From NCBI RefSeq assembly GCF_023935105.1, contig NZ_CP096040.1, positions 2,480,001 to 2,544,000 of the forward strand: a stretch of DNA of 64,000 nt. Reading direction: 5' to 3'. This stretch comes from Caulobacter segnis (GTDB taxonomy: Bacteria > Pseudomonadota > Alphaproteobacteria > Caulobacterales > Caulobacteraceae). The notes under the pieces were generated by a model. It was not told where the DNA came from. It saw nothing but the letters and a program-made list of their open reading frames with translations, and made no database searches. The position numbers and the translations under genes were made by a program. Shown here piece by piece: positions 44,909 through 64,000 of the stretch. Numbering within the stretch: the stretch's first letter is position 1; every line of letters begins with the position of its first letter.

Positions 44909-45086
44909 TTTCGCGATGGCGAAGTGATCGCCGAGGGCTCGTCAGAAGCTCCGGCGCCTAGGGAGTGAGAAAGTCCAGGAGCTTTCCACGCCAACCAGAC
45001 TGCGTCGGGTCCCCCTGGGGCCCGCGACGGCGGCCGTGCGCCTGAACGTCGGCCGCGGGGTGAGAAACAAAAGGAAGGGGAGTGGA

Positions 45087-47969
45087 ATGGTGTTTTTCTC
45101 AGATCGGCGTGGCGTCGCGCGACGCCTGACGGCGGGCGCTTCGGTGCTCGCGATTGGTCTCGCGACCGCGGGCCAGGCCTTCGCCCAGGCCGAAAAAACC
45201 AAGGAAAGCAACGACAGCACCGTGGAGGAGGTCGTCGTCGTCGCCACCGGCACGAATATCGCCGGCGTGAAGGCTGTCGGCAGCGAGACGGTCACCATGA
45301 CCGCCGACGACATCAAGGCTACCGGCCTGACCGACATCCATCAGGTGCTGAAATCGATCCCGCAGATCCAGAGCACGCCGAACGCGGGCGGAGCGGGCCA
45401 GAACTATCGCGAGGGCGGCACCACCGGTTACGGCGGCAACTCCACCCAGGGCACGGCGGTCAACATCCGCGGCATCGGCTACGGCGCCACCCTGACTCTT
45501 GTCGACGGTCGGCGGATCGCGCCCAGCGGCGCTTCGGACGCCTATACTGAAGCAATTCAGGTGCCGATCGCGGCGCTGGAGCGGGTCGACGTCATCGCCG
45601 ACGGCGCGTCGGCCATCTATGGCGCGGATGCGGTCAGCGGCGTCATCAACTACGTCTTGCGCAAGAACTTCGACGGCGCCGAGGCCACCGCCCGCGCCAC
45701 CACCCACCGCTTCTCGACCGAGGTCGGCGGCTCGTTCACCATCGGCCGGCAGTGGGACAACCGACTGGGCCACGGCAACGTCATCCTGACCGCCGACGTC
45801 ATGCATCGTACGCGCGGCAAGCGCTCGGAAAGCCCGTTGCTGATGCAGGACCTGCGGCGCTTCGGCGGCGAGGACAATCGCCAGCTGAACGGGGCGATCT
45901 CGTCGGGCGGGGTGGGCAATCTGGTGGTCAGTGCGAACGGCGCGTCTGGCACGACCTATACCTACTACGGGCTGCCGACCAACGCGGGCGTGAACCCCAC
46001 GGCCAGTCAGCTAACCGGGACCAACCTGGTCGATACGGCCAACTACAACGACTATCTGCCGGATGTGAAGCGTCGCCAGCTGGCGCTGTTCTTCAACCAG
46101 GAGCTCAACGACTGGCTGTCGGTCTACTACGAGGGTTTCTACACCCATCGAAAGACCTCGACCTACCAGTACGACCCCAATACCGGCAGCAGTATCAACG
46201 TCTGCGCGGGCACGCCGTACTATGTCTCGGGCGTGGCGGGCACGCCAGGTTCGGCCTCGACGACCTGCCCCGGCGGCGGCGAGACCTTCGACCTCAACTT
46301 CCACCGCTATATCGGCCTGACCGAGACGACCAATCCCGACAAGGCCTTCACCCAGACCATCGGTCTATCGGCCAACCTGCCGGTCGCCGGCTGGAGGGGC
46401 GAGGCCTACTATACCAACGGCGCGGACCGGACCTGCGGCATTTGCAATATCGGCAAGAATGTCAACCTGGACGCCGTCGCGGCCCAGGTGAACGCCGGCA
46501 CGCTGAATCCCTTCAGCACGGCGGGGCTCGGCCAGTCGCAGATCGCCAGCTTCACCGGCTCGAACGTCCAGTACAGCCGCAACATCATGGACGACGCGGT
46601 CATCAAGTTTAACGGCCCGCTGTTCAGCCTGCCGGGCGGCACGGTTCGCGCGGCCTTCGGCGGCGAGTACTCGCGCCAGCACGAGACCCTGACCAACGGG
46701 GCCAACCGCGGCGCGACCAATGTGTTCGGCATCGACAACGTCTCCGACGAGCGCCGCAAGGTGAAGTCGCTGTTCGCCGAGCTCTACGTGCCGATCTTCG
46801 GGTCGGGCAACGCTCTGCCGCTGGTCCAATCCCTGGCGGTCGACGTGGCCGCCCGCTACGACGACTATTCGGACTTCGGCGACACCACCAACCCCAAGAT
46901 CGGCTTGACCTGGGCCGTCAACGACGCCTTGTCGTTCCGAGGCTCGGCGGGCAAGTCGTTCCGCGCCCCGACCCTGACCGACAAGAGCCCGGTGGTGTTC
47001 TCGGCCGAACTGGTCGGCGTGCCCACGGCCAACAACTCCGGCGACAGCAACATCGGCAACCTGTTCCCGGGCTTCACCAGCGCGCTGGTCGCCCTGGGCA
47101 ACAATCAGGACCTGCAGCCGGAGACCGCCGACACCCTGTCGGTGGGCTTCGACTTCTCGCCGCCGTCCGTGCGCGGTCTGAAGATCTCGGGCACCTACTA
47201 CAAGATCGACTACCAGAACCAGATCTCGAGCCCAAACCGCGATCTCTATCTGGCCAGCGCCGCCAATCGCGCGGCGTTCGCCAACTACATCACGCCGATC
47301 CACAACCCGGCGACCTGCGTACCGGGCAACACCGCGACCTACGACCCGGTGCTGCGCGACTATCTGGCCGGCCGCATCGCCGACTACGTCGTGCCGGTGG
47401 TGGGCACCTACTGCCAGGTCAATGTGATCCTGGACGCGCGGAAGACCAACCTGGCCTCGACGGTCCAGGATGGCGTCGACCTGCAGGCCAGCTACTTGTT
47501 CGAGACCCCCGCGGGTCGCTGGAACGTGGGTGGGTCGGTGACCAAGATCCTGCACAACAAGGTGCAGGCCTCGCCGAACGTCGCCGAGGTGGATCGCCTG
47601 GATCAGCTATACTATCCGGTCAGTCTGCGTGGTCGCGCGAACCTGGGCTGGAGCAAGGGTCCGTGGAGCGCCAATCTGTTCGTCAACTATACGGGCGACT
47701 ACACCAACACCATCCCGCTCACCGTCGGCGGGGTCGTGGTGGGCAAGAGCAAGGTGCCCAGCTGGACCACTTTCGACCTGGGCCTGAGCTACATGGTTCC
47801 GGCGATGACCGGGCCCGCGTGGTTGAAGGGCGTCCGCGCCTCGCTCAATGTCCAGAACGTCGCCGACAAGGATCCGCCGGTGGTGCTGACCACGGGCAGC
47901 GCCTTCGACGGCAATGTCCACAACGTGCTCGGCCGTGTCTGGTCGCTGCAGGTCACGAAGTCGTTCTGA
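45087..47969 (+). CDS. TonB-dependent outer-membrane receptor
   Basis: This is an outer-membrane barrel of 960 residues for energy-dependent uptake of a large substrate. The signal peptide ([17 protein letters not shown]) is followed by a plug domain (about 55-190) with [61 protein letters not shown], then a beta-barrel ending in VTKSF with terminal Phe. Caulobacterales use many such receptors for plant sugars and phenolics. The context (feruloyl esterase, beta-glucosidase, LacI control) points to phenolic glycosides or feruloylated oligosaccharides. ATG 45087 follows GGAAGGGGAG; an upstream open codon at 45036 precedes no signal. The 600-nt leader holds three operator-like sites. Confidence 0.92.
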
Positions 47970-50225: not shown

Positions 50226-50249
50226 TAAGGAAGCGGGTGGTGATTGGAA

Positions 50250-50278
50250 TTGACAACGTTATCACATCGGACTGGTAT
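50250..50278 (+). promoter_or_regulatory. Promoter of the carboxylesterase operon with LacI operator
   Basis: TTGACA (50250-50255), a 17-nt spacer and TGGTAT (50273-50278) form a promoter. The LacI operator TGACAACGTTATCACA (50251-50266) covers the -35 box and is the exact reverse complement of O1 before the TonB gene. Confidence 0.7.
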
Positions 50279-50354
50279 GCACTTGCTCGCGACCGGCATG
50301 ATCGGCGCGTCGAATAATCCAGAAGATCGCCGGGATACGGCGGGGGAGGAAACG

Positions 50355-51962
50355 ATGAAGAGATCGCTATGGCTCGCCACGGCGTGCGCCTTGCTGCTGG
50401 GCGCCGGTAGCGCCGTCGCCGCGCCGGCCGCCGACACCGCCACCCTGGCCTCTGGCAAGATCCAGGGCACCGTCACCGATGGCGTCCTGTCGTTCAAGGG
50501 TGTGCCGTTCGCCCGGCCGCCGGTAGGCGAGCTGCGCTGGCGCGCGCCCCAGCCGGCCAAGCCGTGGACGGGCGTGCGCCCGGCCAAGGCGTACGGCCAC
50601 GACTGCATGCAGAAGCCGTTCCCCAGTGACGCCGCGCCCCTGGGCACGGAGCCCGCCGAGGACTGTCTGGTCGCCAATGTCTGGCGGCCGGCCGAGGCCT
50701 CAGCCAAGAAACTGCCGGTGATGGTCTGGATCTACGGCGGCGGCTTCGTCAACGGCGGCTCGTCGCCCGCTGTTTACGCCGGCGACCAGTTCGCCAAGCA
50801 GGGCATCGTCTTCGTCAGCTTCAACTATCGGGTCGGCCGTTTCGGCTTCTTTGGCCATCCGGCTCTGACCGCCGCCAACGCCGATGGCGGACGCCTGGGC
50901 AACTACGGCTACATGGACCAGATCGCCGCCCTGAAGTGGGTGAAGGAGAACGCCGCGGCGTTCGGTGGCGACCCGGACAACATCACCGTCTTCGGCGAGT
51001 CGGCCGGCGGTGGCTCGGTGCACATGCTGCTGACCTCGCCCGAGTCCAAGGGCCTGTTCCAGAAGGCCGCCATCATGTCCGGCGGCGGCCGCGGCAGCCT
51101 GATGGGGCCGCGTCGCCTCAGCCAGGACCAGCCGGGCGCGCCGTCGGCCGAGTCCATCGGTGTCAACTTCGCCAAGTCGGTCGGCATCGAAGGGACGGGT
51201 CCCGAAGCCCTGAAGGCTCTGCGCGCCCTGAGCGCCGAGCAGGTCACCGCCGGTCTTAACATGGCGGCGATGTTCAATCCCTCGGGCCCGCAGACCTACG
51301 GCGGTCCGATGCTGGACGGCAAGATCGTGGTCGCCGATCCCGAGGTCGCCTATCGCGCCGGGACCCAGGTGAAGGGGCCGGTCATGGTCGGCGCCACCAG
51401 CGCCGACATCGGTTTCGGCTTCGCGCAGAACAAGGATCAGGTGTTCGACCCGTTTGGCCCGCTGAAGGCCCAGGCCCAGGCCGCCTATGATCCCAAGGGG
51501 GACGCCGATGTCCGCTTGGTCGCCTACACCGTGGCCATGGACAAGATGATGGTCGAACCCGCCCGCTTCGTGGCGCAGGTGATCTCGGCCCAGGGCGTTC
51601 CGGCCTACGAGTACCGTTTTTCCTACGTCGCGGACTCCATGCAGGGCGAATGGAAGATGGGCGCGCCGCACGCGACAGACATCCCCTACGTCTTCGACAC
51701 CGTGAAGGCCAAGTATGGCGACGCCCTGACGGCCAAGGACGCCGCGATCGCCAAGGCGGCCAACGCCTATTTCGCCAACTTCGCCAAGACCGGAAACCCG
51801 AATGGTCCGGGCCTGCCGCAATGGCCGGCCTACGACGCCAAGGCCGACGTGCTGATGGACTTTGGCGCCGACGGCGCGGCGCTGGCCAAGCCCGAACCCT
51901 GGAAGGCCCGCATGGAGGTCACGGCCGCCTCGGCCAAGCCGTCCGGCGGTGGGGCTCAGTAG
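50355..51962 (+). CDS. Type B carboxylesterase, secreted (copy 1)
   Basis: This alpha/beta-hydrolase of the carboxylesterase/para-nitrobenzyl esterase family has 535 residues. The signal peptide is LWLATACALLLGAGSAVAAP. Motifs are GVPFARPPVGELRWRAPQP, EDCLVANVWRP, the oxyanion hole VWIYGGGFVNGGS, the nucleophile S216 in FGESAGGGSV, and a late histidine in GAPHATDIPYVF. It probably removes acyl or aromatic ester groups from carbohydrate. GGGGGAGGAAACG precedes ATG 50355. It begins a co-directional run (esterase, GH3, CE1-like, broken esterase, tannase 2). Confidence 0.9.
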   Translation: MKRSLWLATACALLLGAGSAVAAPAADTATLASGKIQGTVTDGVLSFKGVPFARPPVGELRWRAPQPAKPWTGVRPAKAYGHDCMQKPFPSDAAPLGTEPAEDCLVANVWRPAEASAKKLPVMVWIYGGGFVNGGSSPAVYAGDQFAKQGIVFVSFNYRVGRFGFFGHPALTAANADGGRLGNYGYMDQIAALKWVKENAAAFGGDPDNITVFGESAGGGSVHMLLTSPESKGLFQKAAIMSGGGRGSLMGPRRLSQDQPGAPSAESIGVNFAKSVGIEGTGPEALKALRALSAEQVTAGLNMAAMFNPSGPQTYGGPMLDGKIVVADPEVAYRAGTQVKGPVMVGATSADIGFGFAQNKDQVFDPFGPLKAQAQAAYDPKGDADVRLVAYTVAMDKMMVEPARFVAQVISAQGVPAYEYRFSYVADSMQGEWKMGAPHATDIPYVFDTVKAKYGDALTAKDAAIAKAANAYFANFAKTGNPNGPGLPQWPAYDAKADVLMDFGADGAALAKPEPWKARMEVTAASAKPSGGGAQ

Positions 51963-51992
51963 GCATCAACGACAGGAACAGGAGGGGGCGTC

Positions 51993-54245
51993 ATGTTTCG
52001 TAGGACCCTGATGAACGGCGCGATCGCGTTCGCGGTCGTCGCCTTGGCCGGCGCCGTCCAGGCCCAGACCGCGCCAGCCGATCGGCCGTGGATGAACACC
52101 AAGCTTTCGGCCGACGAGCGTGCCAAGCTGCTGGACCAGGCCCTGACCGACGACGAGCGTTACGGCCTGCTGCACGGGATCATGCCGATCCCGTTCTTCC
52201 CCAACGCCAAGATCCCCGAGGAGGCCATTCCCGGGGCGGGTTACGTCGCCGGCATTCCGCGCCTCGGCGTGCCGGCGCTGTACGAGACCGACGCCAGCCT
52301 GGGGGTGACCAACCCGATGAACGTCCGCAAGGGCGACATCGCCACGGCCCTTCCATCGGGCCTGGCGCTGGGCGCGACCTGGAACCCGGCCCTGGCCTAC
52401 ATGGGTGGGGCGGTCGTCGGCGAGGAGGCGGCCAAGAAGGGCTTCAACGTCCTGCTGGGCGGCGGCATGAACCTGACCGCCGAGCCGCGCAACGGCCGCA
52501 ACTTCGAGTATCTGGCCGAGGATCCGCTGCTGGCCGGCGTCCTCGCCGGCGAGGCCGTGCGCGGCACGCAGGACCAGAAGGTCATCTCGACGGTCAAGCA
52601 CTTCGCCCTCAACGACCAGGAGACCGGTCGCAACGTCGTCGACGCCACGATCGGTGAGCAGGGCTTCCGCCAGGGTGAACTGCTGGCCTTCCAGTTCGCG
52701 ATCGAGAAGGGCAAGCCCGGCTCGGTGATGTGCGCCTACAACAAGATCAACGGTCACTACGCCTGCGACAACGACTTCCTACTGAACAAGGTGTTGAAGG
52801 GCGACTGGGCCTGGCCGGGCTGGGTGATGTCCGACTGGGGCGCGGTCCCTGGCGTCAGCGCCGCAGTCAACGGCCTTGATCAGCAGTCGGGCGCGCAGCT
52901 GGACCGCCAGGTCTGGTTCGACAAGCCGCTGAAGGAAGCCGTGGCCAAGGGCGAGGTCCAGCAGGCCCGGGTCAACGACATGTCGCGCCGCATCCTGCGC
53001 TCGATGTTCGCGGTCGGCGTGTTCGACACGCCCTTGCGCAAGGGCCAGGCGATCGACTACGACGCCGGCGCGGCCGCCTCCAAGACGGTGGCCCAGCAAG
53101 GCATCGTCCTGCTGAAGAACGACAAGAACCTCCTGCCGCTGCTGAAGACCGCCAAGTCGATCGTGGTGGTCGGTGGTTATGCCGACAAGGGCGTCCTGTC
53201 GGGCGGCGGCTCGTCGCAGGTGACCACGGGAACCGGCCATGCCGCATCCATTCCCGTGGGCGGCGACGGCCCGATGGTGGCCTGGGCCAGCCAAGTCTAT
53301 CACCCGTCCTCGCCGCTCAAGGCGATCAAGGACAAGGCTCCGGGCGCGAACGTGCGGTTCTCCGACGGTCGCTATCCGTCGGAGGCCGCGGCCCTGGCCA
53401 AGGACGCCGAGGTGGCGGTGGTGTTCGCCACGCAATGGAACATGGAGAGCATCGACGCGGGCGACATGTCCCTGCCGCAAGGCCAGGATCAGTTGATCGC
53501 CGCCGTCGCCGCCGCCAACCCGAATACGATCGTGGTCCTGGAGACTGGCAACCCCGTGCTGATGCCGTGGCTGACCTCCGTGCCGGCCGTGGTCGAGGCC
53601 TGGTATTCCGGGGCCAAGGGCGGTGAGGCGATCGCCGACGTGCTGTTCGGCGACGTCAACCCGTCGGGCCGCCTGCCCATCACCTTCCCAGCCTCCGAGG
53701 ACCAGCTTCACGACCGCCAGATCGCGGGCTTTGGCTATGTCGGTCCGGGCTTCGGTGACTCACCCGAGGTGCTGGCCGAGAAGGGCAAGGGCTTCGAGGC
53801 CAGCCATCCGGAGGGCTCGGACATCGGCTACCGCTGGTATGCGCGCAAGGGCTTCAGGCCGCTGTTCCCGTTCGGTTACGGCCTGTCCTACACCAGCTTC
53901 AAGTACGGAGGCTTGAAGGTCTCTGGCGGCGACACGATCACGGCCAGCTTCGACGTGACCAACACAGGCGCCAAGGCCGGGGCGGATGTGCCGCAGGTCT
54001 ATTTGACCGCCCGCTCGGGCGCGCCGGAACTGCGCCTGCTGGGCTGGAACCGGGTCGAGCTGGCGCCGGGCGAGACCAAGCGCGTGACCGTCACCGCCGA
54101 CCGCCGCCTGTTGGCTGATTTCGACGTCAAGGCCCGCAAGTGGCGGATCGACGCCGGGACCTACGACGTCGCTGTCGGCGCCTCGGCGACGGCGCTGGAC
54201 GCCAAGGCCTCGGCCAAGGTCAAGGCCGGCGCGCTTAAACCGTAG
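51993..54245 (+). CDS. Glycoside hydrolase family 3 beta-glucosidase, secreted
   Basis: This is a GH3 enzyme of 750 residues. The signal peptide is GAIAFAVVALAGAVQAQ. The (beta/alpha)8 domain (about 40-350) has VPALYETDASLGVTNP, LLGGGMNLTAEPRNGRNFEY, TVKHFALNDQE and nucleophile D281 in GWVMSDWGAV. The alpha/beta sandwich domain (about 370-580) has GIVLLKNDKNLLPL and a C-terminal FnIII-like domain (about 640-735). It would remove glucose or xylose from phenolic glycosides or oligosaccharides. It lies 30 nt after the esterase, and a large hairpin follows. Confidence 0.92.
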   Translation: MFRRTLMNGAIAFAVVALAGAVQAQTAPADRPWMNTKLSADERAKLLDQALTDDERYGLLHGIMPIPFFPNAKIPEEAIPGAGYVAGIPRLGVPALYETDASLGVTNPMNVRKGDIATALPSGLALGATWNPALAYMGGAVVGEEAAKKGFNVLLGGGMNLTAEPRNGRNFEYLAEDPLLAGVLAGEAVRGTQDQKVISTVKHFALNDQETGRNVVDATIGEQGFRQGELLAFQFAIEKGKPGSVMCAYNKINGHYACDNDFLLNKVLKGDWAWPGWVMSDWGAVPGVSAAVNGLDQQSGAQLDRQVWFDKPLKEAVAKGEVQQARVNDMSRRILRSMFAVGVFDTPLRKGQAIDYDAGAAASKTVAQQGIVLLKNDKNLLPLLKTAKSIVVVGGYADKGVLSGGGSSQVTTGTGHAASIPVGGDGPMVAWASQVYHPSSPLKAIKDKAPGANVRFSDGRYPSEAAALAKDAEVAVVFATQWNMESIDAGDMSLPQGQDQLIAAVAAANPNTIVVLETGNPVLMPWLTSVPAVVEAWYSGAKGGEAIADVLFGDVNPSGRLPITFPASEDQLHDRQIAGFGYVGPGFGDSPEVLAEKGKGFEASHPEGSDIGYRWYARKGFRPLFPFGYGLSYTSFKYGGLKVSGGDTITASFDVTNTGAKAGADVPQVYLTARSGAPELRLLGWNRVELAPGETKRVTVTADRRLLADFDVKARKWRIDAGTYDVAVGASATALDAKASAKVKAGALKP

Positions 54246-54259
54246 AAGAGACAAGTCCT

Positions 54260-54324
54260 TGGGGGAGGGCTTGGGCCTTCGACCGCGTCCGCGTGGGGCG
54301 CGCGCGGTCGAAGGCCATCCCCCA
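54260..54324 (+). other. Large intercistronic hairpin
   Basis: TGGGGGA (54260-54266) pairs with TCCCCCA (54318-54324), and inside it GGCCTTCGACCGCG (54274-54287) pairs perfectly with CGCGGTCGAAGGCC (54303-54316). It fills most of the 109-nt gap between the GH3 and CE1-like genes. There is no T tract after it, so it more likely acts as a processing or stabilising element than as a terminator. Confidence 0.65.
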
Positions 54325-54354
54325 GACTATAAAAGAATCGGACGGGAGGCCGAC

Positions 54355-55554
54355 ATGACCCTCAAGCGTGACCTGATCGGAGCGGCCGCGGCCGCCTTGC
54401 TGCTGGCGCCGTTCGCGGCCCAAGCCCAAACGCCGCCGGCTCAGGGACAGGCGGCCAGCTGCCTGCCGCGCGGCTTCTTCGCCGGCCCGGCGGCCTACAA
54501 GTCGGTGGAGCAGCTGCCCGACGGCCGCGTCACCTTCCGCCTGTGCGCGCCGGAGGCCCAGGCCGCCATGGTGACCAGCACCGACAACGCCGATGTCATC
54601 CCGATGGGCTTCGGCGGCGGGCCGCGCGGCCTGGCCATGACCAAGGACGCCTCGGGCCTGTGGAGCGTCACGACCGACAAGCCGGTCGCGGCCGACACCT
54701 ACCGCTTCAACTTCAACGTCGATGGCGCGCGCGTGCCTGATCCGCAGGGGACGCGGTTCTCTGAAGAGCGCGTCGGGGTCAACAGCACCTTCGAGGTCAT
54801 GGGCCCGGCCGGCGCCTTCCAGACCTTCGACAAGGCCGTGCCGCATGGCGTGGTCTCGACGGTGGAGTACTGGTCTGGATCGCTGAACGTGCGCCGCCGC
54901 GCCCACGTCTACACGCCGCCCGGCTACGAGAAGGGCAAGGGCGTCTATCCGGTGCTCTATCTGGTCCACGGCGCCGGCGACAGCGACGACAGCTGGACCT
55001 CGGTCGGCCACGCCCAATACATCCTCGACAACCTGATCGCGGCCGGGAAGGCCAAGCCGATGATCATCGTCATGCCCGCCGGCCATACGCCTGATCGGCC
55101 TGGCGCGAACATGCTGGTCAACACCGACTTCGGCGACGATTTCCTCAAGGACCTGATCCCGTACGTCGACGCCCGTTACCGCACGAGCGCCAAGGCCGAC
55201 GCACGGGCGATGGCCGGCCTGTCGATGGGCGGCGCGCACACCATTCAGAACGGCCTGACCCATCCGGAGCTCTTCCACTACATCGGGATCTTCAGCATGG
55301 GCTTGCAATCGTCCGAGCAGGCGACCGAGTACGCGACCCGCAATGACGCGGCGCTGACGCAGGGCGCCAAGGCGTTCAAGCTGGTCTACTACGCCATGGG
55401 CAAGGACGACTTCCTGCACGGGACCGTCGCCTCGACCCGCGCGACGCTGGACAAGTACGGGATCGCCCACGTCTATAACGAGAGCGGCGGAGGCCACACC
55501 TGGATCAACTGGCGCCGCTACCTGGCCGATTTCGCGCCGCGCCTGTTCAAGTAG
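54355..55554 (+). CDS. CE1-like esterase with N-terminal beta-sandwich domain
   Basis: This is a secreted esterase of 399 residues with a signal peptide (GAAAAALLLAPFAAQAQ). An early-set/CBM48-like domain (about 45-145) has GRVTFRLCAPEAQAAMV and TYRFNFNVDGARVPDPQG. The esterase D/CE1 domain follows with RRRAHVYTPPGYEKGKGVYPVLYLVHG, nucleophile S290 in MAGLSMGGAHT, and the final histidine in ESGGGHTWINWRRYL. This architecture is known from feruloyl and acetyl xylan esterases in xylan loci. GGGAGG precedes ATG 54355. Confidence 0.88.
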   Translation: MTLKRDLIGAAAAALLLAPFAAQAQTPPAQGQAASCLPRGFFAGPAAYKSVEQLPDGRVTFRLCAPEAQAAMVTSTDNADVIPMGFGGGPRGLAMTKDASGLWSVTTDKPVAADTYRFNFNVDGARVPDPQGTRFSEERVGVNSTFEVMGPAGAFQTFDKAVPHGVVSTVEYWSGSLNVRRRAHVYTPPGYEKGKGVYPVLYLVHGAGDSDDSWTSVGHAQYILDNLIAAGKAKPMIIVMPAGHTPDRPGANMLVNTDFGDDFLKDLIPYVDARYRTSAKADARAMAGLSMGGAHTIQNGLTHPELFHYIGIFSMGLQSSEQATEYATRNDAALTQGAKAFKLVYYAMGKDDFLHGTVASTRATLDKYGIAHVYNESGGGHTWINWRRYLADFAPRLFK

Positions 55555-55565
55555 GAGCGCCAGCC

Positions 55566-57136
55566 ATGGCTCGAATGCTTCCGGCCTTCGCCCTCGCGCT
55601 AGGTCTGCTGTCCCTGAGCCAGCCCGCTAGCGCCCAGCTCCTGAACACCGCCAGGGTGACGCAGGGCGTGTTGGAAGCCGGGCCGCCCGAAAAGGGCGTG
55701 GCCGTCTTCAAAGGCGTGCCGTTCGCCGCGCCGCCCGAAGGCGACCTGCGCTGGCGCGCCCCAAGGCGCCCGCCGCCTGGAGCGGCGTGCGAAAGGCCGG
55801 CCACTTCGGCGCCAACTGCATGCAAACGGGCGGAGGCGGCAAGGGCTTCGGGCCCTGGACCACCGAGTATATCATCCAGGACCCGGTCGCCGAGGACTGC
55901 CTCTATCTGAACGTCTGGACCCCGGCCAGGACGGTGGGCGACAAGCTGCCGGTGCTGGTGTGGATCCACGGCGGCGGCTTCAGCAGCGGCTCGGGCTCGG
56001 TGCCGATCTACGACGGCGCGGCCTTCGCCGCGCGCGGTGTCGTGATGGTGACCCTCAACTATCGCGTCGGCGTGTTCGGCTTCCTGGCGCATCCGGCTTT
56101 CACGGCCGAGGCGGGGACCTCGGGCAATTACGGCCTGATGGATCAGGTCGAGGCCCTGAAGTGGATCAAGGCGAACATCGCCGCATTCGGTGGCGACCCG
56201 GCCAAGGTCACCATCGCCGGCCAGTCGGCGGGCGCGGCCTCGGTGCACGAACTGATCGCCGCACCCTCGGCCAAGGGCCTGTTCGCTCGCGCCATCGCCC
56301 AGAGTGGTTCGGGCATGGGGCTTGGGACCACGCCGCGTGCGGCGGCCGAGGTCGACGGCGTCCGCTTCGCGAGCCAGGCCGGCGCCGCCTCCCTCTCGGA
56401 CCTGCGGGCCATGCCGGCCGAGACACTGTTGGCGGTGCGCGGCGAGGGCGGTGGCCTGCGCTTCGCCCCGATCATTGATGGCGTGTTCATCCCCGGCGAC
56501 CCGAACGATCCTGCCAAGGTCGCGTCCAACGTACCGATGCTGACCGGCCTTACCGCCGACGAGGCTAGCGGCATGGTCCCCAACTACGGCCGCGCCAGCG
56601 CCGCCGAGCTGAAGGGGCAGCTGTCTCGCGCGTTCGGCGCCTTGAGCGACCGCGCGACGGCGCTCTATCCGGCCGCCGACGACGCAGAGGCGGGCTTGGT
56701 CAACTGCCGCTGGGCGCGCGAGCGCGGCCTGGCCTCGACCGTGCTGTGGGCGGCGCAGCGGCAGAAGGCCGGCGGTCAGCCGACCTTCGTCTACCAGTTC
56801 ACCCACGTCGAGCCCGGCCCCGACGCGCCGCGCTACGGCGCGTTCCATTCGTCCGAGATCCCCTACGTCTTCCAGACGCTGGACAAGTCGCCGGATCGAC
56901 CATTCACCGCCGCCGACCGAGCGCTGTCAGAACAGATGGCGACCTATTGGGTCAACTTCGTGAAGGCTGGCGATCCCAACGGCTCGGGCCTGCCGGCCTG
57001 GCCGCGCTTCGACGCCACCGAAGGGCGGATCCTGGAAATCGGCGAGCACACCGGTGCGCGCGAGGCTTTGCCGCCGGCCACCCTGTCGCTCTATCGCGAC
57101 CTGGCGGCGCAGGGCGGCCGGATGAGCATCTTCTAG
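55566..57136 (+). pseudogene. Type B carboxylesterase (copy 2) interrupted by a one-base frameshift
   Basis: Two frames together encode one carboxylesterase. The first, from ATG 55566 (GGAG 8 nt upstream), gives a signal peptide and GVPFAAPPEGDLRWRAP. The second continues with WSGVRKAGHFGANCMQ, EDCLYLNVWTPA, VWIHGGGFSSGSG, the nucleophile in AGQSAGAASV and the late SSEIPYVFQTL. The switch is at the C run 55759-55762: one added base would restore a continuous protein of about 523 residues, similar to copy 1. Both parts keep normal GC3. It is either a recent null mutation, a phase-variable tract, or a sequencing error. Confidence 0.85.
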
Positions 57137-57158
57137 GCCAGAGACAGGGGAGCGGGAC

Positions 57159-58727
57159 TTGATCGAGGCAATGGTGGCCCTGGCGATGGCGGCCACGCCC
57201 GCGGGGCAGTCGCCCAAGACCGCGTGCGGCGACCTGGCCGGCTTCACGGTCGAAGCGGCGCGGATCGGCTTGCCGACCACCGGCGCGAAGGTCACCAGCG
57301 CCTCGGCCGATCCGGCTGGAGTCTGCGTGGTCAAAGGCGCGATCGCCCCCGTCGACCCCGCGGCGCCGCCGATAAACTTCCAGATCAACCTGCCGGCCGC
57401 CTGGAATGGCAAGGCGGTGCAGATCGGCGGCGGCGGCTATGACGGCTTCCTGGTCTCCGGCCGCAGCCCAAGTTTCCTGCCCAAGGACAAGGAGCGGGTC
57501 GCGACGGGCTATGCGACCTTCGGCTCGGATTCCGGTCACCAGGGCGGCGGTGGGGACCCGCGGCTAGCGGTGGGCGACGCGTCCTTCGCGATGAACGAGG
57601 AAGCCTGGATCAACTTCGGCCACGCCCAGATCAAGAAGACGCGCGACGTCGCCGTGGCGGTCATGGGCCGTTTCTACGGGACGGGACCGCGTCGGCTCTA
57701 TTTCTACGGCAACTCGCAGGGCGGCCATGAAGGTCTGATCGCCGCCCAGCGTTTCCCGGCCGACTACGATGGCGTGGTGGCCATCCACCCGGCCTACAAT
57801 TTCACGGCCCTGCAGCTGTCGGGCCTGAACCTGGCGAAACATCTCTACGCGCCGGGCGCCTGGATCAGCCCGGCCAAGACGCGGCTGATCGGCGACGCGG
57901 TCGTGGCCAAGTGCGATGGCCTCGACGGATTGATGGACGGCGTGGTCTCGAACGTCGCCGCCTGCCGCGCCGCCTTCGACGTGCGGACCCTGCGGTGCCC
58001 TGGCGACTCCGAGAGCGACGGATGCCTGACGAGCGCCCAGGTGAAGGCGGCCATCGCCATCTCGCAACCCACACGGTTCGGCATGGTGATCAGCGGTGGC
58101 GACACGTTCGGCGGCTGGCCGATCCTGGAAGGCGCGTTCGGCAAGGGCAGCTTCTTCGGCCTGGGCTTCCGGTCCGTCCCGGGCAAGCCGCCGACCGGTC
58201 AGGACGCGTTCGGTTTCCTGATGGCCGACCAGGGCGTGCGCTACATGATGGTCCGCGATCCGGCCTACGACTCGCTGGCCTTCGAGCCCACCCAGCACCG
58301 CGCGGCGGTGGCGCGCTCGGCCGAGCTGGTCGACGCCAGCAGCACCGACCTGGATCCCTTCCGGGCGCGGGGCGGCAAGCTGCTGCTGATGCACGGCACG
58401 GTCGACATGGCCATCCCACCCAGCAACTCGATCGCCTACTACCAGCGCCTGAGCGCGCGGTACGGAACGGCCCTGCCGGGCTTCCTTCGATTCTATATCG
58501 CGCCTGGCTTCGGCCATGGCGACGGACCGTTCCCGGTGTCGTGGAATTCGCTGGAGGCGCTCGACCATTGGGTCGAGGCCGGACAGGCGCCGGGTCCGCA
58601 GACGATCGCCGACACCTCGCCGGATGGCGGCGGACGCGCGCGGCCATTGTGCGAGTTTCCGCGCTGGCCACGCTACGACGGCAAGGGCGATCCGAACCGC
58701 GCCGACAGCTTCGCCTGCGTGAACTGA
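57159..58727 (+). CDS. Tannase/feruloyl esterase family protein 2, lacking the CS-D-HC cysteines
   Basis: This tannase-family hydrolase has 522 residues. Family marks are INFQINLPAAWNGKAVQIGGGGYDG, GYATFGSDSGHQ, FYGNSQGGHEGLIAAQRFPADYDG split by no gap, DGLDGLMDGVVSN and RPLCEFPRWPRYDGKGDPN. Serine S186, D416 and H453 are in place. But the residue before Ser is N185 and the one after His is G454, so both disulfide cysteines of the usual motif are missing together. TTG 57159 has GGGGAG 6 nt upstream; the N-terminus (VALAMAATPAGQ) is only a weak signal sequence. It ends the esterase run. Confidence 0.88.
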   Translation: MIEAMVALAMAATPAGQSPKTACGDLAGFTVEAARIGLPTTGAKVTSASADPAGVCVVKGAIAPVDPAAPPINFQINLPAAWNGKAVQIGGGGYDGFLVSGRSPSFLPKDKERVATGYATFGSDSGHQGGGGDPRLAVGDASFAMNEEAWINFGHAQIKKTRDVAVAVMGRFYGTGPRRLYFYGNSQGGHEGLIAAQRFPADYDGVVAIHPAYNFTALQLSGLNLAKHLYAPGAWISPAKTRLIGDAVVAKCDGLDGLMDGVVSNVAACRAAFDVRTLRCPGDSESDGCLTSAQVKAAIAISQPTRFGMVISGGDTFGGWPILEGAFGKGSFFGLGFRSVPGKPPTGQDAFGFLMADQGVRYMMVRDPAYDSLAFEPTQHRAAVARSAELVDASSTDLDPFRARGGKLLLMHGTVDMAIPPSNSIAYYQRLSARYGTALPGFLRFYIAPGFGHGDGPFPVSWNSLEALDHWVEAGQAPGPQTIADTSPDGGGRARPLCEFPRWPRYDGKGDPNRADSFACVN

Positions 58728-58800: not shown

Positions 58801-59712
58801 ATGCACATCACGCTGGGTCAGATCCGCGCCTTCGTCACGGTTGCCTCGACGAACAGCTTCACGCGCGCGGCCGAGGTCCTGGCGCTGTCGCAGCCGGCCC
58901 TGACCAACCGCGTTCGTCAGTTCGAGGAGGCGCTGGGCCTGCGCCTGTTCGACCGTAACACCCGCTCGGTCGAGCTGACCCATGTTGGCCGGGAGCTGCT
59001 GCCGATTTTCCTGCGCACGATCACCGAGTTCGAGGGGGCGGTGGTCAACGCCCGCGATTTCGTCTCCAAGACCAAGGGGTTGGTCCGCCTGGCCTGCCTG
59101 CCGTCGTGCGCGGCGACCATGCTCCCCGAGCTGATCGCCCGCTTCCAGCTCGACCACCCCAACGTCACGTTTGAGGTCGAGGACGCGTTGAACAGCGCCA
59201 TCGCCACTCTGGTGCGCGAGGACCGCGTCGACTTCGGCATCGGCATGGCCGACGCCAACGACGACGACCTCGAGCAGATCAAGCTGTTCGACGACGCCAT
59301 GATGCTGGTTCATCCCGAGGGACACCCGGTCGCCGACGCGCCGACGATTTCGGTCGAAACTCTGGCGACCTATCCGCTGATCCTGATGAACCGAGGCAGC
59401 AGCGTGCGCGACCTCGTCGACGGAGCCTTCATCGCGGCCGGCCGCACGGCGACGCCGGCCTGCCAGGTTCGCTACATGTCGACGGCTGTGGCCCTGGTCC
59501 GGGCCGGGCTGGGTTTGGCGATCCTGCCGTCGACCGCCGTCGAGTTCCGCAGCCAGGCCAATGTTCGGGCCCGGCGGATTCAGGACCCGGCCTTTACCCG
59601 CACGATTGTGCTGATGCGGCGCCGGCATTCGCCCGTCCGACCGGTCGTGCAAACGTTTATCGATAGTATCTGCGTGGCTGCTGGATCCGTTTCATGCGGA
59701 TTTATCGAGTAA
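58801..59712 (+). CDS. LysR family transcriptional regulator
   Basis: This LysR regulator has 303 residues. The N-terminal HTH is LGQIRAFVTVASTNSFTRAA continuing with LSQPALTNRVRQFEEALGLRLFDR; the effector domain (about 92-295) has LVRLACLPSCAATMLPELI and SVRDLVDGAFIAAG. It lies upstream of, and in the same direction as, the CitMHS-AtuA operon and is the likely regulator. Its ligand would be a carboxylate or an intermediate. Three ATCGA boxes lie at its 3' end and in the gap. Confidence 0.9.
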   Translation: MHITLGQIRAFVTVASTNSFTRAAEVLALSQPALTNRVRQFEEALGLRLFDRNTRSVELTHVGRELLPIFLRTITEFEGAVVNARDFVSKTKGLVRLACLPSCAATMLPELIARFQLDHPNVTFEVEDALNSAIATLVREDRVDFGIGMADANDDDLEQIKLFDDAMMLVHPEGHPVADAPTISVETLATYPLILMNRGSSVRDLVDGAFIAAGRTATPACQVRYMSTAVALVRAGLGLAILPSTAVEFRSQANVRARRIQDPAFTRTIVLMRRRHSPVRPVVQTFIDSICVAAGSVSCGFIE

Positions 59713-59726
59713 GGCTATTAATCGAT
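59659..59726. promoter_or_regulatory. Three ATCGA boxes before the CitMHS operon
   Basis: ATCGAT at 59659 and 59721 and ATCGA at 59704, each with AT-rich flanks (TTTATCGA, TTAATCGA), lie across the lysR stop and the 99-nt gap before the transporter. They may be LysR half-sites. The last two are 17 bp apart. Confidence 0.35.
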
Positions 59727-59811
59727 CCAAACTTCCGTTTTGTGCGCGGGCTTCGGGGATCGGCATATACGCCTGACAAGCTGACACAGCGTCCAGGAAG
59801 AAACGCCCCTC

Positions 59812-61113
59812 ATGCTCGCTCTCATAGGCGTCTTGGCGATCCTCGCACTGACCGCGGCGATCCTGTCCAATCGCGCCTCGCCCGTCGCGGCGTTGATCCT
59901 CATACCTTTGGCGGCCGCGATCGCGATCGGCCAGGGCGCCCAGGCCCCGGCCATGATGGTGGCGGGCATCGGCAAGATCGCGCCGGTGGCGGCGATGTTC
60001 GTCTTCGCCATCCTGTTCTTCGGCGTGATGACCGACGCGGGCCTCTTGGATCCGATCGTTCGCCGCATCCTCAAGGCCGTGGGCCGCCGTCCCAGCCGGA
60101 TCACAGTGGGCACGGCGCTGCTGGCCCTGATCATCCACCTCGACGGTTCGGGCGCGGTTTGTTTCCTGGTGGCGATCCCGGCCATGCGGCCGCTGTACGA
60201 CACCCTGGGCATGGACCGCCGGATCCTGGCCTGCGTGGCGTCGCTGGCGGCCGGGGTGAACTTCCTGCCGTGGACGGGCCCGACGGTGCGCGCGGCCTCG
60301 GCGCTGCACATCCCGGTGCTGGACATCTTCAAGCCGATGATCGGGGTGCAACTGGCGGGCCTGGCTTTCGTCTTCGTCGTCAGCTGGTGGCTAGGCAAGC
60401 GCGAGGAGAAGCGTCTCGGCCTGGTGGAGGCCGCCGCCGATGGCGCGCCGACGCTGGACATTCCCGAGCACGGCGCCGAGCCGGGCTTGGCGCGGCCCGG
60501 TCTGTTCTGGCTGAACCTGGCCTTGACCCTGGTAGCCATGGGTATGCTGGTCGCGGGTGTGGCCCCGCCGGCCGTGGTGTTCATGGTCGCCTTCGCCGCG
60601 GCCCTGCTGATCAACTATCCCAAGGTGGCGGACCAGCGGGCCCGGATCGACGCCCACGCCCGTTCGGCGCTGCTGATGGCCTCGGTGCTGATCGCGGCCG
60701 GCGCCTTTACCGGTGTGATGGGCGGGGCGGGTTTCCTGAAGGCCATGGCCGACGCGGCGGTCGCCAATGTCCATCCCGACAGCGGCCGGCACATTCCGTT
60801 CGTCCTGTCGCTGCTGGCCATGCCGCTGAGCATGGTCTTCGATCCGGACTCCTTCTATTTCGGCGTCCTGCCGGTGATCGCCGAGACCCACGCCCGCCTG
60901 GGCGGCGCGCCGGTCCAGGTGGCCCAGGCCGCTCTCGTCGGCCAGATGACGGCGGGCTTCCCCGTCAGCCCGCTGACGCCGGCGACTTTCCTGGTGGCGG
61001 GCCTGGCCGGGGTCGAGCTGTCGGCCCACCAGAAGTTCGCCTTCCCGTTCCTCTACGGCGCGTCGCTGGTCATGGCGGTCGCTTGCCTGCTGCTGGGGTT
61101 GTTTCCGCTTTGA
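59812..61113 (+). CDS. CitMHS family carboxylate transporter
   Basis: This is a CitMHS-type secondary transporter of 433 residues with 11-12 predicted helices. Family marks are LFFGVMTDAGLLDPIVRRI, LIIHLDGSGAVCFLVAIPAM, FLPWTGPTVRAAS, and the late FDPDSFYFGVLPVI and MTAGFPVSPLTPATFLVAG. Characterised members carry metal-citrate complexes; others take different di- or tricarboxylates. Here the substrate is likely the organic acid used by the downstream AtuA/hydrolase genes. The last bases overlap the next start (TTGA). Confidence 0.9.
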   Translation: MLALIGVLAILALTAAILSNRASPVAALILIPLAAAIAIGQGAQAPAMMVAGIGKIAPVAAMFVFAILFFGVMTDAGLLDPIVRRILKAVGRRPSRITVGTALLALIIHLDGSGAVCFLVAIPAMRPLYDTLGMDRRILACVASLAAGVNFLPWTGPTVRAASALHIPVLDIFKPMIGVQLAGLAFVFVVSWWLGKREEKRLGLVEAAADGAPTLDIPEHGAEPGLARPGLFWLNLALTLVAMGMLVAGVAPPAVVFMVAFAAALLINYPKVADQRARIDAHARSALLMASVLIAAGAFTGVMGGAGFLKAMADAAVANVHPDSGRHIPFVLSLLAMPLSMVFDPDSFYFGVLPVIAETHARLGGAPVQVAQAALVGQMTAGFPVSPLTPATFLVAGLAGVELSAHQKFAFPFLYGASLVMAVACLLLGLFPL

Positions 61114-62468
61114 CGTCCTCTCCTGAACCTCGTGTCGTTCGCATCGGCGCCGGCGCCGGTTTCGCCGGCGACCGCATCGAGCCGGCCATCGAACTGGTCC
61201 GCGAAGGGCGGCTCGACTACCTGGTGTTCGAGTGCCTGGCCGAGCGCACCATCGCCTTGGCCCAGCGCGCGCGCCTGGGGGATCCGAGCGGCGGCTACGA
61301 CCCGCTGCTGGAGTCGCGGATGCGCGCGGTGCTGCCGCTGTGCGTCGAGAAAGGCGTGCGCATCGTTTCGAACATGGGCGCGGCCAATCCGGCCGCCGCC
61401 GCCGCCCGCATCGCCGAGTTGGCCGCTGACCTGCGGCTTCCAGGCTTGAAGATCGCCGCCGTCGTTGGCGACGACGTGCTGGATGTAGTGGCGGGATCGA
61501 CCCGGCCCCTGCTGGAGGTTGGCGGTGACGTCGCCAGCCTGGGCGACAGCCTGATCTCGGCCAACGCCTATCTGGGCTGTGAGCCGATCGTCCAGGCCTT
61601 GGCCGGCGGCGCTCAGGTCGTGGTCACCGGTCGCGTCGCCGATCCGTCCCTTTTTCTGGCGCCCCTGGTCCATGAGTTCGGCTGGGCGCCGGACGACTGG
61701 GAGCGCCTGGGACGAGGCACCGTCGTGGGCCATCTGCTGGAATGCGCCGGCCAGGTCACCGGCGGCTATTTCGCCGACCCCGACGTCAAGATGGTGCCTG
61801 ACCTGGCGCGACTGGGTTTCCCGCTGGCCGAGGTGTCCGCCGACGGCTCGGCGGTGATCACCAAGGTCGAGGGCTCGGGCGGTCGCGTCGACGTGGCCAC
61901 CTGCACCGAGCAACTGCTGTACGAGCTGCACGACCCCACGCAGTACTTGACGCCCGACGTCACCGCCGACTTCTCGACCGTGCGGTTCGAGGCTGTCGGT
62001 CCGGACCGCGTCGCCGTGCGCGGCGGGGGCGGCCGGCCGCGTCCCGCCCAGCTGAAGGTCTCGCTGGGTCGCAAGGAAGGCTTCATCGGCGAGGGGGCGA
62101 TTTCGTACGCCGGCTCCAGCGCCGTCGCGCGCGGACGCCTGGCCCTGGACATCATAGCCGAGCGCTTCCGCCTGACCGGCCTGGCGCCCGAGGAAACGCG
62201 GTTCGAGTTGATCGGCGTCGACGCCGTGGCGCCCGAGAGCCTGGTGTCGGCCTTCGCGCCGATGGAGGTCCGGGCCCGGGTCGTGGCCCGCACGCGCACG
62301 CTGGGCGAAGCCGAACGCATCGGCCGCGAGGTCGAAGCCCTCTATACCAACGGACCGGCCGGCGGCGGCGGGGCCACGCGACTGGTGACCCCGGTCATCG
62401 GCGTGGTCTCGACCCTGATCGAGCGCGAGCTGGTCCAGCCCCACGTGATCTTCGAGGCAGCGTTATGA
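61110..62468 (+). CDS. AtuA family protein (DUF1446)
   Basis: This is a DUF1446/AtuA-type protein of 452 residues. Family marks are VRIGAGAGFAGDRIEPAIELV, DYLVFECLAERTIALAQ, GVRIVSNMGAANPAAAA, SANAYLGCEPIVQAL, VVTGRVADPSLFLAPLVHEFGW, LLECAGQVTGGYF and TCTEQLLYELHDPTQYLTPDV. AtuA is named from acyclic terpene utilisation in Pseudomonas, but its chemistry is unknown. No atuC/atuF carboxylase is nearby, so terpene use is not supported. TTG 61110 overlaps the transporter stop; the end overlaps the next gene as ATGA. Confidence 0.88.
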   Translation: MTSSPEPRVVRIGAGAGFAGDRIEPAIELVREGRLDYLVFECLAERTIALAQRARLGDPSGGYDPLLESRMRAVLPLCVEKGVRIVSNMGAANPAAAAARIAELAADLRLPGLKIAAVVGDDVLDVVAGSTRPLLEVGGDVASLGDSLISANAYLGCEPIVQALAGGAQVVVTGRVADPSLFLAPLVHEFGWAPDDWERLGRGTVVGHLLECAGQVTGGYFADPDVKMVPDLARLGFPLAEVSADGSAVITKVEGSGGRVDVATCTEQLLYELHDPTQYLTPDVTADFSTVRFEAVGPDRVAVRGGGGRPRPAQLKVSLGRKEGFIGEGAISYAGSSAVARGRLALDIIAERFRLTGLAPEETRFELIGVDAVAPESLVSAFAPMEVRARVVARTRTLGEAERIGREVEALYTNGPAGGGGATRLVTPVIGVVSTLIERELVQPHVIFEAAL

Positions 62469-62779
62469 AGCTGCGCGACCTGGCGCATGCCCGCAGCGGC
62501 GACAAGGGTGATGTCTCCAACATCTCAGTCATCGCCTACGGTCCAGACGCCTATGACCGCGTGCGGCGGGCCCTGACGCCCGAACGGGTCAAGACGCACC
62601 TGCGCGACATCGTGCGCGGCGAGGTTCGCCGTTACGACCTGCCGGACCTGATGGCTCTGAACTTCGTGTTGAACGGGGCTCTGGGCGGCGGCGTGACGCG
62701 GTCGCTGGCGCTGGACGCTCATGGCAAGTGCCTGAGCGGGCTGCTGCTGGAGCTGGATATCGAGGAGACGTCGGTATGA
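62465..62779 (+). CDS. Separate AtuA-like C-terminal domain protein
   Basis: This 104-residue protein matches the ferredoxin-fold domain often fused to the C-terminus of AtuA. It has KLRDLAHARSGDKGDVSNIS, a mid-region with PERVKTHLRDIV and RRYDLPDLMALNFVLNGALGG, and LDAHGKCLSGLLLELDI. Here it is encoded separately and coupled to AtuA (ATGA) and the hydrolase (ATGA). It is presumably a small subunit of an AtuA complex (inference). Confidence 0.85.
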   Translation: MKLRDLAHARSGDKGDVSNISVIAYGPDAYDRVRRALTPERVKTHLRDIVRGEVRRYDLPDLMALNFVLNGALGGGVTRSLALDAHGKCLSGLLLELDIEETSV

Positions 62780-64000
62780 CCCTGCGCAAGGCGCTTTGCC
62801 TGGGCGCGGCCCTGGCCTCGACACTGGCTGCTCCGGCGGTCGCGGCGCAGGCGCCCAAGGGCGTCACGGTGCTGCGCCATCTGAGCTTCGATGGCGTCAC
62901 CGACGACCTGGTCGGTCTGGCCGCCAAGCCCGCTGCCTACGCCGATCCGCTGCATCCGAACGCCGCCGAACTGCGTCGGGCGACCATGGCGGTCCGGCCG
63001 GACCCTGCCTCGGGCTGGGGACGTCTGTTCGGGCCGACGATCGACGCGGCGACGGGCCAGCCCTATCCGGACGGCGGCCGCGTGGCCGGCGAAGAGTACC
63101 TGGCCTATACGCACGGTCCCGGCGGCGGGAAGAGCGCTGTCCTGCTGCAAGTCCCCGCCAAGCTGTCGCGCGTGCAGCGCTGCATCCTGGCCGTGCCGCA
63201 GGCGGGCTCGTTCGGGATCTATCATGACATCTCCACGACCGGCTTCTGGGGCCTGCAGCGCGGCTGCGCGGTGGTCTACAGCGACAAAGGCCACGGCACG
63301 GGCGCGCACGACCTTTCGAGCGACACCGTCACCCTGATCGATGGGACCACCGCCAAGGCCTCCGAGGCCGGAGCGCTGTCGCATTTCACCGCGCCACTGT
63401 CGGCCAAGGCCCGCGCCGCCTTTCTAGCCCGTTGGCCGCACCGCATCGCCTTCAAGGCCGCCCATTCGCGGCTCAATCCCGAGAGCCAGTGGGGCGAGGA
63501 CGTGCTGCGCGCCATCCGCTACGCCTTCTGGCAGCTGAACGATCGCGACGGCGGCGGCTGGACCTCGGACAACACGATCGTCATCGTCGCCGGTAACTCC
63601 AACGGCGGCGGCGCGACACTTTACGCGGGCGAAAAGGACCACGAAGGTCTGATCGACGGACTGGTGGCGGGCGAGCCTCAGGTCCAGGTGCGCGGCGATC
63701 CCGAGATCCGGGTGCTGCGCGGCGACAAGGCGCGGGCCAATGGCGCGCGCACGCTGCTGGACTACTTCACCTTCGCCAACCTTTACGAGCCCTGCGCGGT
63801 GCTAGCCATGACGGACGCGCCATGGGCCGACCGTGTGACCCACGCCGCCGACCGCTGCGCCTCGCTGAAGCAGACCGGCCTGCTGGATGCTGGCGACCTG
63901 ACCGGTCAGGCGCGTGAGTCCCAGGACAAGCTGCTGGCCTATGGCTTCGATCCCGAGACCGAAGTGCTCAACGCCGCCGGCTACCTGATCGGCCCCGACG
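62776..64000 (+). CDS. 3-hydroxybutyrate-oligomer-hydrolase-like secreted protein (partial)
   Basis: The gene starts at ATG 62776 (ATGA with the previous stop) and is open to the window end: 408 codons, with the C-terminus missing. A signal peptide (ALCLGAALASTLAAPAVAAQ) precedes a 3HBOH-family sequence: FGIYHDISTTGFWGLQRGC, VVYSDKGHGTGAHDL, NPESQWGEDVLRAIRYAF and serine S275 in GNSNGGGATLYAGE. Family members hydrolyse linear 3-hydroxybutyrate oligomers. In this operon, with a carboxylate transporter and AtuA, another hydroxy-acid ester may be the substrate. Confidence 0.85.
   Translation, partial: MTLRKALCLGAALASTLAAPAVAAQAPKGVTVLRHLSFDGVTDDLVGLAAKPAAYADPLHPNAAELRRATMAVRPDPASGWGRLFGPTIDAATGQPYPDGGRVAGEEYLAYTHGPGGGKSAVLLQVPAKLSRVQRCILAVPQAGSFGIYHDISTTGFWGLQRGCAVVYSDKGHGTGAHDLSSDTVTLIDGTTAKASEAGALSHFTAPLSAKARAAFLARWPHRIAFKAAHSRLNPESQWGEDVLRAIRYAFWQLNDRDGGGWTSDNTIVIVAGNSNGGGATLYAGEKDHEGLIDGLVAGEPQVQVRGDPEIRVLRGDKARANGARTLLDYFTFANLYEPCAVLAMTDAPWADRVTHAADRCASLKQTGLLDAGDLTGQARESQDKLLAYGFDPETEVLNAAGYLIGPD

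Follow-up and report, generated by a model that had tools for sequence, protein, structure and literature searches.

Gene order at the right end of the window

The window analyzed here is a stretch of 64,000 nucleotides (nt) covering bases 2480001-2544000 of the 5.69 Mb single-contig genome of a Caulobacter strain, and all coordinates are given relative to it. At its right end, five genes follow one another on the plus strand, encoding a LysR-type regulator, a CitMHS-family carboxylate importer, an AtuA large subunit, an AtuA small subunit, and an alpha/beta hydrolase of the D-(-)-3-hydroxybutyrate oligomer hydrolase (3HBOH) family. The LysR gene (58801..59712; PF00126 and PF03466) is the probable regulator of the set. 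The gap behind it (59713..59811) is partly conserved in a pairwise alignment with Caulobacter sp. Root343 and is a candidate regulator site.

The importer (59812..61113) matched PF03600 with 87 bits and the citrate:proton symporter model TIGR00784 with 366.6 bits, above the curated cut-off of 259.7. AtuA (61110..62468) begins with a TTG start inside the TTGA overlap and matched PF07287 over its full length, from residue 10 to 446, with 525 bits against a cut-off of 22.8. It is followed by the split small subunit of 104 residues (62465..62779; PF23544 AtuA_ferredoxin, 124 bits) and by the hydrolase (62776..64764; PF10605, 688 bits against a curated cut-off of 27), which runs past the window end at 64000. 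Judged by hydropathy and not by a signal-peptide program, the N-terminus of the hydrolase is hydrophobic and signal-peptide-like, and AtuA and the small protein carry no such stretch.

A first-pass annotation, made from the letters alone, had described four genes overlapping by 4 nt behind a LysR gene. The three overlaps are present in the sequence (TTGA at 61110, ATGA at 62465, and ATGA at 62776), and scans with Pfam and TIGR/NF models gave the same names for LysR, CitMHS, AtuA, and the hydrolase. It had also allowed that genes past 64000 might place the set in a known pathway such as the use of polyhydroxybutyrate (PHB) oligomers. A TonB-dependent receptor gene comes after the hydrolase, followed by other genes, and no PHB genes were recognized there.

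Recurrence of the set and the AtuA-linked hydrolases

The whole set was found in identical order in Caulobacter sp. Root343, TonB-dependent receptor included, with identities of 89% for AtuA, 83% for the small protein, and 81% for the hydrolase. As far as sequence comparison goes, this recurrence is more than chance. Confinement to the source genome, which would have spoken against the first-pass reading, was ruled out by Root343 together with two Microvirga loci and one Pseudomonas luteola locus. The unit of esterase, importer, and AtuA looks real.

3HBOH genes are uncommon, occurring in 2 of 199 genomes in the family sample and in 15 of 398 in the phylum sample. Four plasmid records matched the window hydrolase as query. 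AtuA and the small protein adjoin it in three of them (Microvirga ossetica, Microvirga sp. VF16, and Pseudomonas luteola), while in the fourth, from Paraburkholderia phymatum, AtuA lies half a megabase from the hydrolase. All five AtuA-linked members found (two from Caulobacter, two from Microvirga, and one from Pseudomonas luteola) adjoin AtuA and the small protein. In contrast, neither partner was seen near any of the 19 other 3HBOH proteins within stretches of 1.5 kb (15 proteins), 10 kb (3), or 7 kb (1) on each side.

In a tree of the 24 hydrolases, the five linked proteins form a single clade with a support of 1.000. This clade carries the motifs G[NS]SNGG and HFG, whereas in the 19 others the residue ahead of the serine motif differs and H[FL]D stands in place of HFG. 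Like the D-(-)-3-hydroxybutyrate oligomer hydrolase (PF10605), the window protein matches the family along its entire chain and retains the SNGG serine motif and a catalytic-type histidine motif; unlike it, the protein belongs to a distinct subfamily with 34-49% aligned identity to the 19 others. A chance placement of the 3HBOH gene beside AtuA is ruled out by the counts of five out of five against none out of 19 and by the separate clade.

Among 18 further genomes and records searched, AtuA was present in 11, and an adjoining hydrolase was found in Root343 only. Where sampled genomes hold both an unlinked 3HBOH gene and AtuA, the latter is on a different contig or at a distance of over 100 kb, a placement in which draft contig breaks could hide a neighbor. 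The five linked members are not independent and represent about three events, because two pairs are close relatives. Their AtuA proteins are spread over three separate branches of a tree in which several inner nodes have low support, so that the pairing of hydrolase and AtuA is not one inherited block.

Relation of the AtuA pair to CmlAB and to terpene-utilization AtuA

The only solved relative of AtuA is 9ERQ/9EVF, which its depositors named citramalate lyase and which consists of the subunits CmlA and CmlB. A literature search limited to open-licence papers gave none on CmlAB. A profile of the window AtuA matched chain A of 9ERQ (CmlA) with 38.8 bits (E = 3.5e-9). In hhalign, AtuA aligned to the CmlA-like family with 99.5% probability over 323 columns (E = 2.7e-22), and the motifs GR.xDP, LECA, and LYExxDP stand in register. 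The small protein aligned to the DUF4387/CmlB-like family with 78% over 98 columns (E = 1.8e-5). Controls covered the small subunit: each of two alignments to an unrelated family of small proteins reached 0.1%.

Like CmlA and CmlB, the window pair thus consists of tandem genes for a large AtuA-family subunit and a subunit of about 100 amino acids, with profile homology in both. Unlike them, its small subunit belongs to PF23544 and not to the DUF4387 (PF14330) type of CmlB, and its large subunit is distant. On profile grounds, AtuA and the small protein are distant homologs of the two 9ERQ subunits. The relation to CmlA is not at the level of orthologs, as the window AtuA scores 24.5 bits, whereas the other AtuA of the genome reaches 251 bits.

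This second AtuA locus lies at about 735.7-743.4 kb in the same genome and encodes a CitMHS importer (TIGR00784, 519 bits), the close CmlA relative, and a DUF4387 protein that scores 43 bits against CmlB. It is a candidate for the citramalate lyase of this bacterium. Some 3 kb upstream there is a gene of the tartrate-dehydrogenase family (TIGR02089, 576 bits). The window importer, at 367 bits, is above the curated TIGR00784 cut-off of 260 but below the CitMHS protein of the second locus.

The window proteins share the Pfam families PF07287 and PF23544 with the terpene-utilization AtuA. While the terpene type is one fused chain of about 600 amino acids, the window type is split over two genes with a 4-nt overlap. 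Split AtuA proteins form their own clade in the tree (support 0.989), beside ten fused AtuA proteins. Geranyl-CoA carboxylase or citronellol genes were not found among the family-scanned proteins from 42.9 kb to the TonB receptor, the other open reading frames (ORFs) of the flanks having been read by eye only.

Exchange of esterases and importers around the AtuA pair

AtuA relatives were found in 62 of the 398 sampled phylum genomes. A six-frame search of AtuA neighborhoods gave 93 rows, in which L006 and L098, and probably L121 and L130, are one locus each pair. The rows comprise the best 34 of 69 AtuA places in the phylum sample, 40 of 59 in the class sample, and 15 of 84 plasmid records hand-picked for diversity. 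Three loci that had been chosen through the hydrolase (L098, L171, and L172) were counted separately. In every one of the 93 rows, AtuA and the small protein have an ORF each, and the small protein adjoins AtuA, coming after it, in 92 of 92 loci (34/34, 40/40, 15/15, and 3/3). A related LysR gene adjoins AtuA in 29 of 34 phylum-sample loci versus 5 of 40 class-sample loci.

Importers encoded on the same strand vary. In the phylum sample, CitMHS occurred 13 times, TctC 10, TRAP 5, and ABC twice, with none in 4 loci; in the plasmid set, CitMHS occurred 7 times, TctC and TRAP 3 times each, and ABC once, with none in 1 locus. The class sample gave TRAP in 8 loci, ABC in 3, TctC in 2, and CitMHS in 1, with none in 26. 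A same-strand esterase of three families (3HBOH, Abhydrolase_10, and tannase) occurred in 5 of 34 phylum, 1 of 40 class, and 3 of 15 plasmid loci.

Abhydrolase_10, scored above a cut of 100 bits under which the weak match of L106 (65 bits) falls, was found on the same strand in six loci (L100, L101, L103, L110, L116, and L123), and it occupies the place of the hydrolase in L176 as well. In Sphingomonas parapaucimobilis and two Novosphingobium plasmids, the order LysR, CitMHS, AtuA, small protein, esterase, and TonB receptor is kept, with Abhydrolase_10 replacing 3HBOH. Tannase relatives were found near the AtuA pair as well: on the same strand in L128, where the gene comes immediately behind that of the small protein, and in L172, and on the opposite strand in L123 and L176. 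A search of the Caulobacter genome itself for Abhydrolase_10 found none, but carries little weight as its control also gave no match. No AtuA relative was found in a scan of viral contigs.

Unrelated esterases and importers are thus exchanged around a fixed pair of AtuA and the small protein, the pattern that a unit for substrate release, import, and attack would show. The first-pass annotation had proposed surveying AtuA (DUF1446) neighborhoods for CitMHS and 3HBOH; the survey gave a 3HBOH subfamily that adjoins the pair in each of the five members found, and CitMHS as one of several importers.

Other neighbors were seen as well. M20-family peptidase/amidohydrolase genes lie downstream of the pair in L088 (10081-11490) and L114 (9497-10954), where they possibly free an acid from an amide rather than from an ester. 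The AtuA gene at 6998-8335 in L118 (Sphingobium sp. TomTYG64) bears the annotation of an ABC transporter substrate-binding protein, without support from its family match. Encoded nearby are a thiolase and a beta-keto acid cleavage enzyme. Eight class-sample loci with CaiB-type coenzyme A (CoA)-transferase genes (L136, L137, L138, L145, L147, L148, L154, and L160) often also hold DctP/DctM-type TRAP genes. They represent a second kind of context for the split AtuA pair, perhaps with CoA-ester substrates.

Proposed pathway and candidate acids

We propose, with the balance standing level, that the set is a catabolic cassette for external ester hydrolysis, import of the acid, and release of acetate by a lyase. 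In the first step, the exported 3HBOH-family hydrolase would free a polycarboxylic hydroxy acid from its ester, as its family, N-terminus, and recurrence suggest. The TonB-dependent receptor may carry the ester across the outer membrane, and the CitMHS importer would bring the acid into the cell. AtuA and the small protein would then act as a two-subunit, CoA-free lyase removing acetate from an acid with a tertiary hydroxyl beta to a carboxylate, a step suggested by the homology to CmlA and CmlB of 9ERQ and by the tentative acetate-lyase assignment of AtuA in terpene breakdown. If that assignment is right, the citramalate lyase and Atu reactions would share the same chemistry, in which a compound whose tertiary hydroxyl is beta to a carboxylate loses acetate; this link is our own inference. 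A lyase of this kind, releasing acetate from a tertiary hydroxy acid without CoA, is the more likely function of the pair.

The first-pass annotation had likewise read the genes as hydrolysis outside the cytoplasm, import, and processing by an AtuA complex. This outline is the best fit to the recurring secreted esterases and carboxylate importers, with the reservation that an esterase occurs at a minority of the loci.

Several observations weigh against the proposed cassette. As a single sequence, the window AtuA matches CmlA weakly (24.5 bits, E = 1.2e-4), the hhalign probability of the small protein is 78%, and a profile search with the small subunit found no CmlB chain up to E = 10. Given these weak matches, a different reaction is possible for the pair. 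The structure prediction that had been suggested for the complex was run on each protein singly, from two-sequence alignments, and the models were too poor to use, with a mean predicted local distance difference test (pLDDT) score of 37.8 for AtuA and 47.3 for the small protein. In the Atu pathway, a review assigns the acetate-lyase step to LiuE and not to AtuA (PMC4097962). Most loci of the pair carry no esterase of the three families, and 26 of 40 class-sample loci are without an importer of the families sought. CaiB-type CoA-transferase genes lie near in 8 of these 40 loci, where they would fit CoA-ester substrates, and an in-line CoA-transferase and thiolase accompany the pair in just 1 of 93 rows.

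The most likely acid for the proposed lyase, named here tentatively, is 3-hydroxy-3-methylglutarate, which would give acetate and acetoacetate. In L095, genes for the two subunits of a CoA-transferase and for a thiolase lie on the same strand about 156 nt behind those for AtuA (57% identical to that of the window) and the small protein. The alpha subunit of the CoA-transferase matched the acetate CoA-transferase model NF007394 with 388 bits (cut-off 315), and its partner is a 3-oxoacid CoA-transferase B. The thiolase is nearest to acetyl-CoA acetyltransferase models, below their strict cut-offs and above that of the general model. This trio represents a route for acetoacetate, the expected product, and thereby favors 3-hydroxy-3-methylglutarate. 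A similar trio occurs on the opposite strand in L115, and we regard the context of both loci as a lead and not as proof. 3-Hydroxy-3-methylglutaryl flavonoid glycosides exist in plants, although one title calls the acid rare (PMC11044239). A literature search on the degradation of 3-hydroxy-3-methylglutarate esters, limited to open-licence papers, gave nothing relevant.

Competing explanations

Citrate or citramalate is possible as the acid, in which case the same cassette and lyase chemistry would yield oxaloacetate or pyruvate together with acetate, and citrate esters of plant glucosides could be one source; we give this a minority chance. The CitMHS and TctC families are named for citrate and tricarboxylates, and 9ERQ carries the name citramalate lyase. 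In L168 (Salipiger abyssi plasmid pPABY7, 33-8622), CoA-transferases, a MaoC dehydratase, and a CoA-ester lyase lie directly upstream of TAXI-TRAP, AtuA, and the small protein on one strand, a gene set that we take to resemble C5-dicarboxylate pathways. Parishins, which are citrate esters of a glucoside, also speak for citrate. They are known plant compounds (PMC9822251). On the other side, citrate enters the tricarboxylic acid cycle without a lyase, so a dedicated enzyme is less needed. The second AtuA of the genome is far closer to CmlA (251 versus 24.5 bits) and is thus a better candidate for a citramalate lyase, and L095 points to acetoacetate.

It is improbable that the genes serve plain use of 3-hydroxybutyrate oligomers, with the hydrolase acting on PHB oligomers, CitMHS importing 3-hydroxybutyrate, and AtuA as an auxiliary. 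The 688-bit family match and the retained serine and histidine motifs fit such a role, and the CoA-transferase and thiolase of L095 would equally serve acetoacetate derived from 3-hydroxybutyrate. However, the hydrolase belongs to a separate AtuA-tied subfamily and is replaced by unrelated esterase families in sister loci, and no 3-hydroxybutyrate dehydrogenase or PHB gene was recognized in the stretch read, which was only partly family-scanned.

There is little probability, too, that AtuA and the small protein act on a CoA ester as in terpene breakdown, the free acid being activated elsewhere first. For AtuA of the Atu pathway, a CoA ester is the tentative substrate (PMC4847356). CaiB-type CoA-transferase genes lie near AtuA in 11 of 93 rows, but none of these 11 has a same-strand esterase. 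The window operon has no CoA-transferase, CoA ligase, or carboxylase, and the name of CmlAB implies a free acid.

Quinate, malate, or tartrate from hydroxycinnamoyl esters, the acids suggested by the first-pass annotation, are unlikely. In their favor, tannase/feruloyl-esterase genes lie beside the window set and near AtuA in L123, L128, L172, and L176, and there is a tartrate dehydrogenase gene close to the second AtuA locus. Against them, the annotated AtuA-3HBOH loci yielded no gene for quinate or tartrate, and the acetate-releasing lyase suggested by the 9ERQ homology should act on an acid whose tertiary hydroxyl is beta to a carboxylate. The three acids fit this poorly: malate and tartrate have no tertiary alcohol, and quinate is without a carboxymethyl group that could leave as acetate.

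Neighboring esterase block

Directly upstream of the LysR gene, a protein of the tannase/feruloyl-esterase family is encoded on the plus strand (57159..58727; PF07519, 393 bits), possibly a further esterase of the system. Before it, closely spaced plus-strand genes at 50244..57136 encode, by Pfam, a carboxylesterase, a GH3 glycosidase, a PF00756 esterase, and a second carboxylesterase. The latter lies in two overlapping frames (55566-55910 and 55787-57136), and in the second of these the family match starts only at profile position 56; the frame at 55566-57136 seems interrupted, by mutation or sequencing error. These five genes (50244-58727) adjoin a TonB receptor gene (45036-47969) and two LacI regulators, and the block resembles an operon for a glycosylated phenolic ester. 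It was rejected as a fixed part of the set, as no counterpart was found in 22 kb around the Root343 set. A GH3 glycosidase resembling that of the window was found in 1 of 15 loci scanned, adjoining the Sphingomonas parapaucimobilis set.

Implications for the AtuA family

The closest known systems are CmlAB for the enzyme and 3HBOH for the hydrolase, and to our knowledge the combination with exchangeable esterases has not been described. A literature search, likewise limited to open-licence papers, found no description of AtuA combined with an esterase and an importer, and CitMHS was not named among the matches on AtuA pathways. We know of no function for PF20091 or for the AtuA-linked 3HBOH subfamily.

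PF07287 and PF23544 proteins are common yet without a settled function, which the cassette makes testable. If the cassette functions in the proposed way, a reaction would be assigned for a large family, and functions for three esterase groups. More doubtfully, the set may represent a hitherto undescribed route for living on esters of 3-hydroxy-3-methylglutaric acid. It would combine an outside esterase and an importer, both exchanged between lineages, with a 3-hydroxy-3-methylglutarate:acetate lyase that needs no CoA and is built from the split AtuA subunits. If so, this route would make the release of acetate the common chemistry of the AtuA superfamily.

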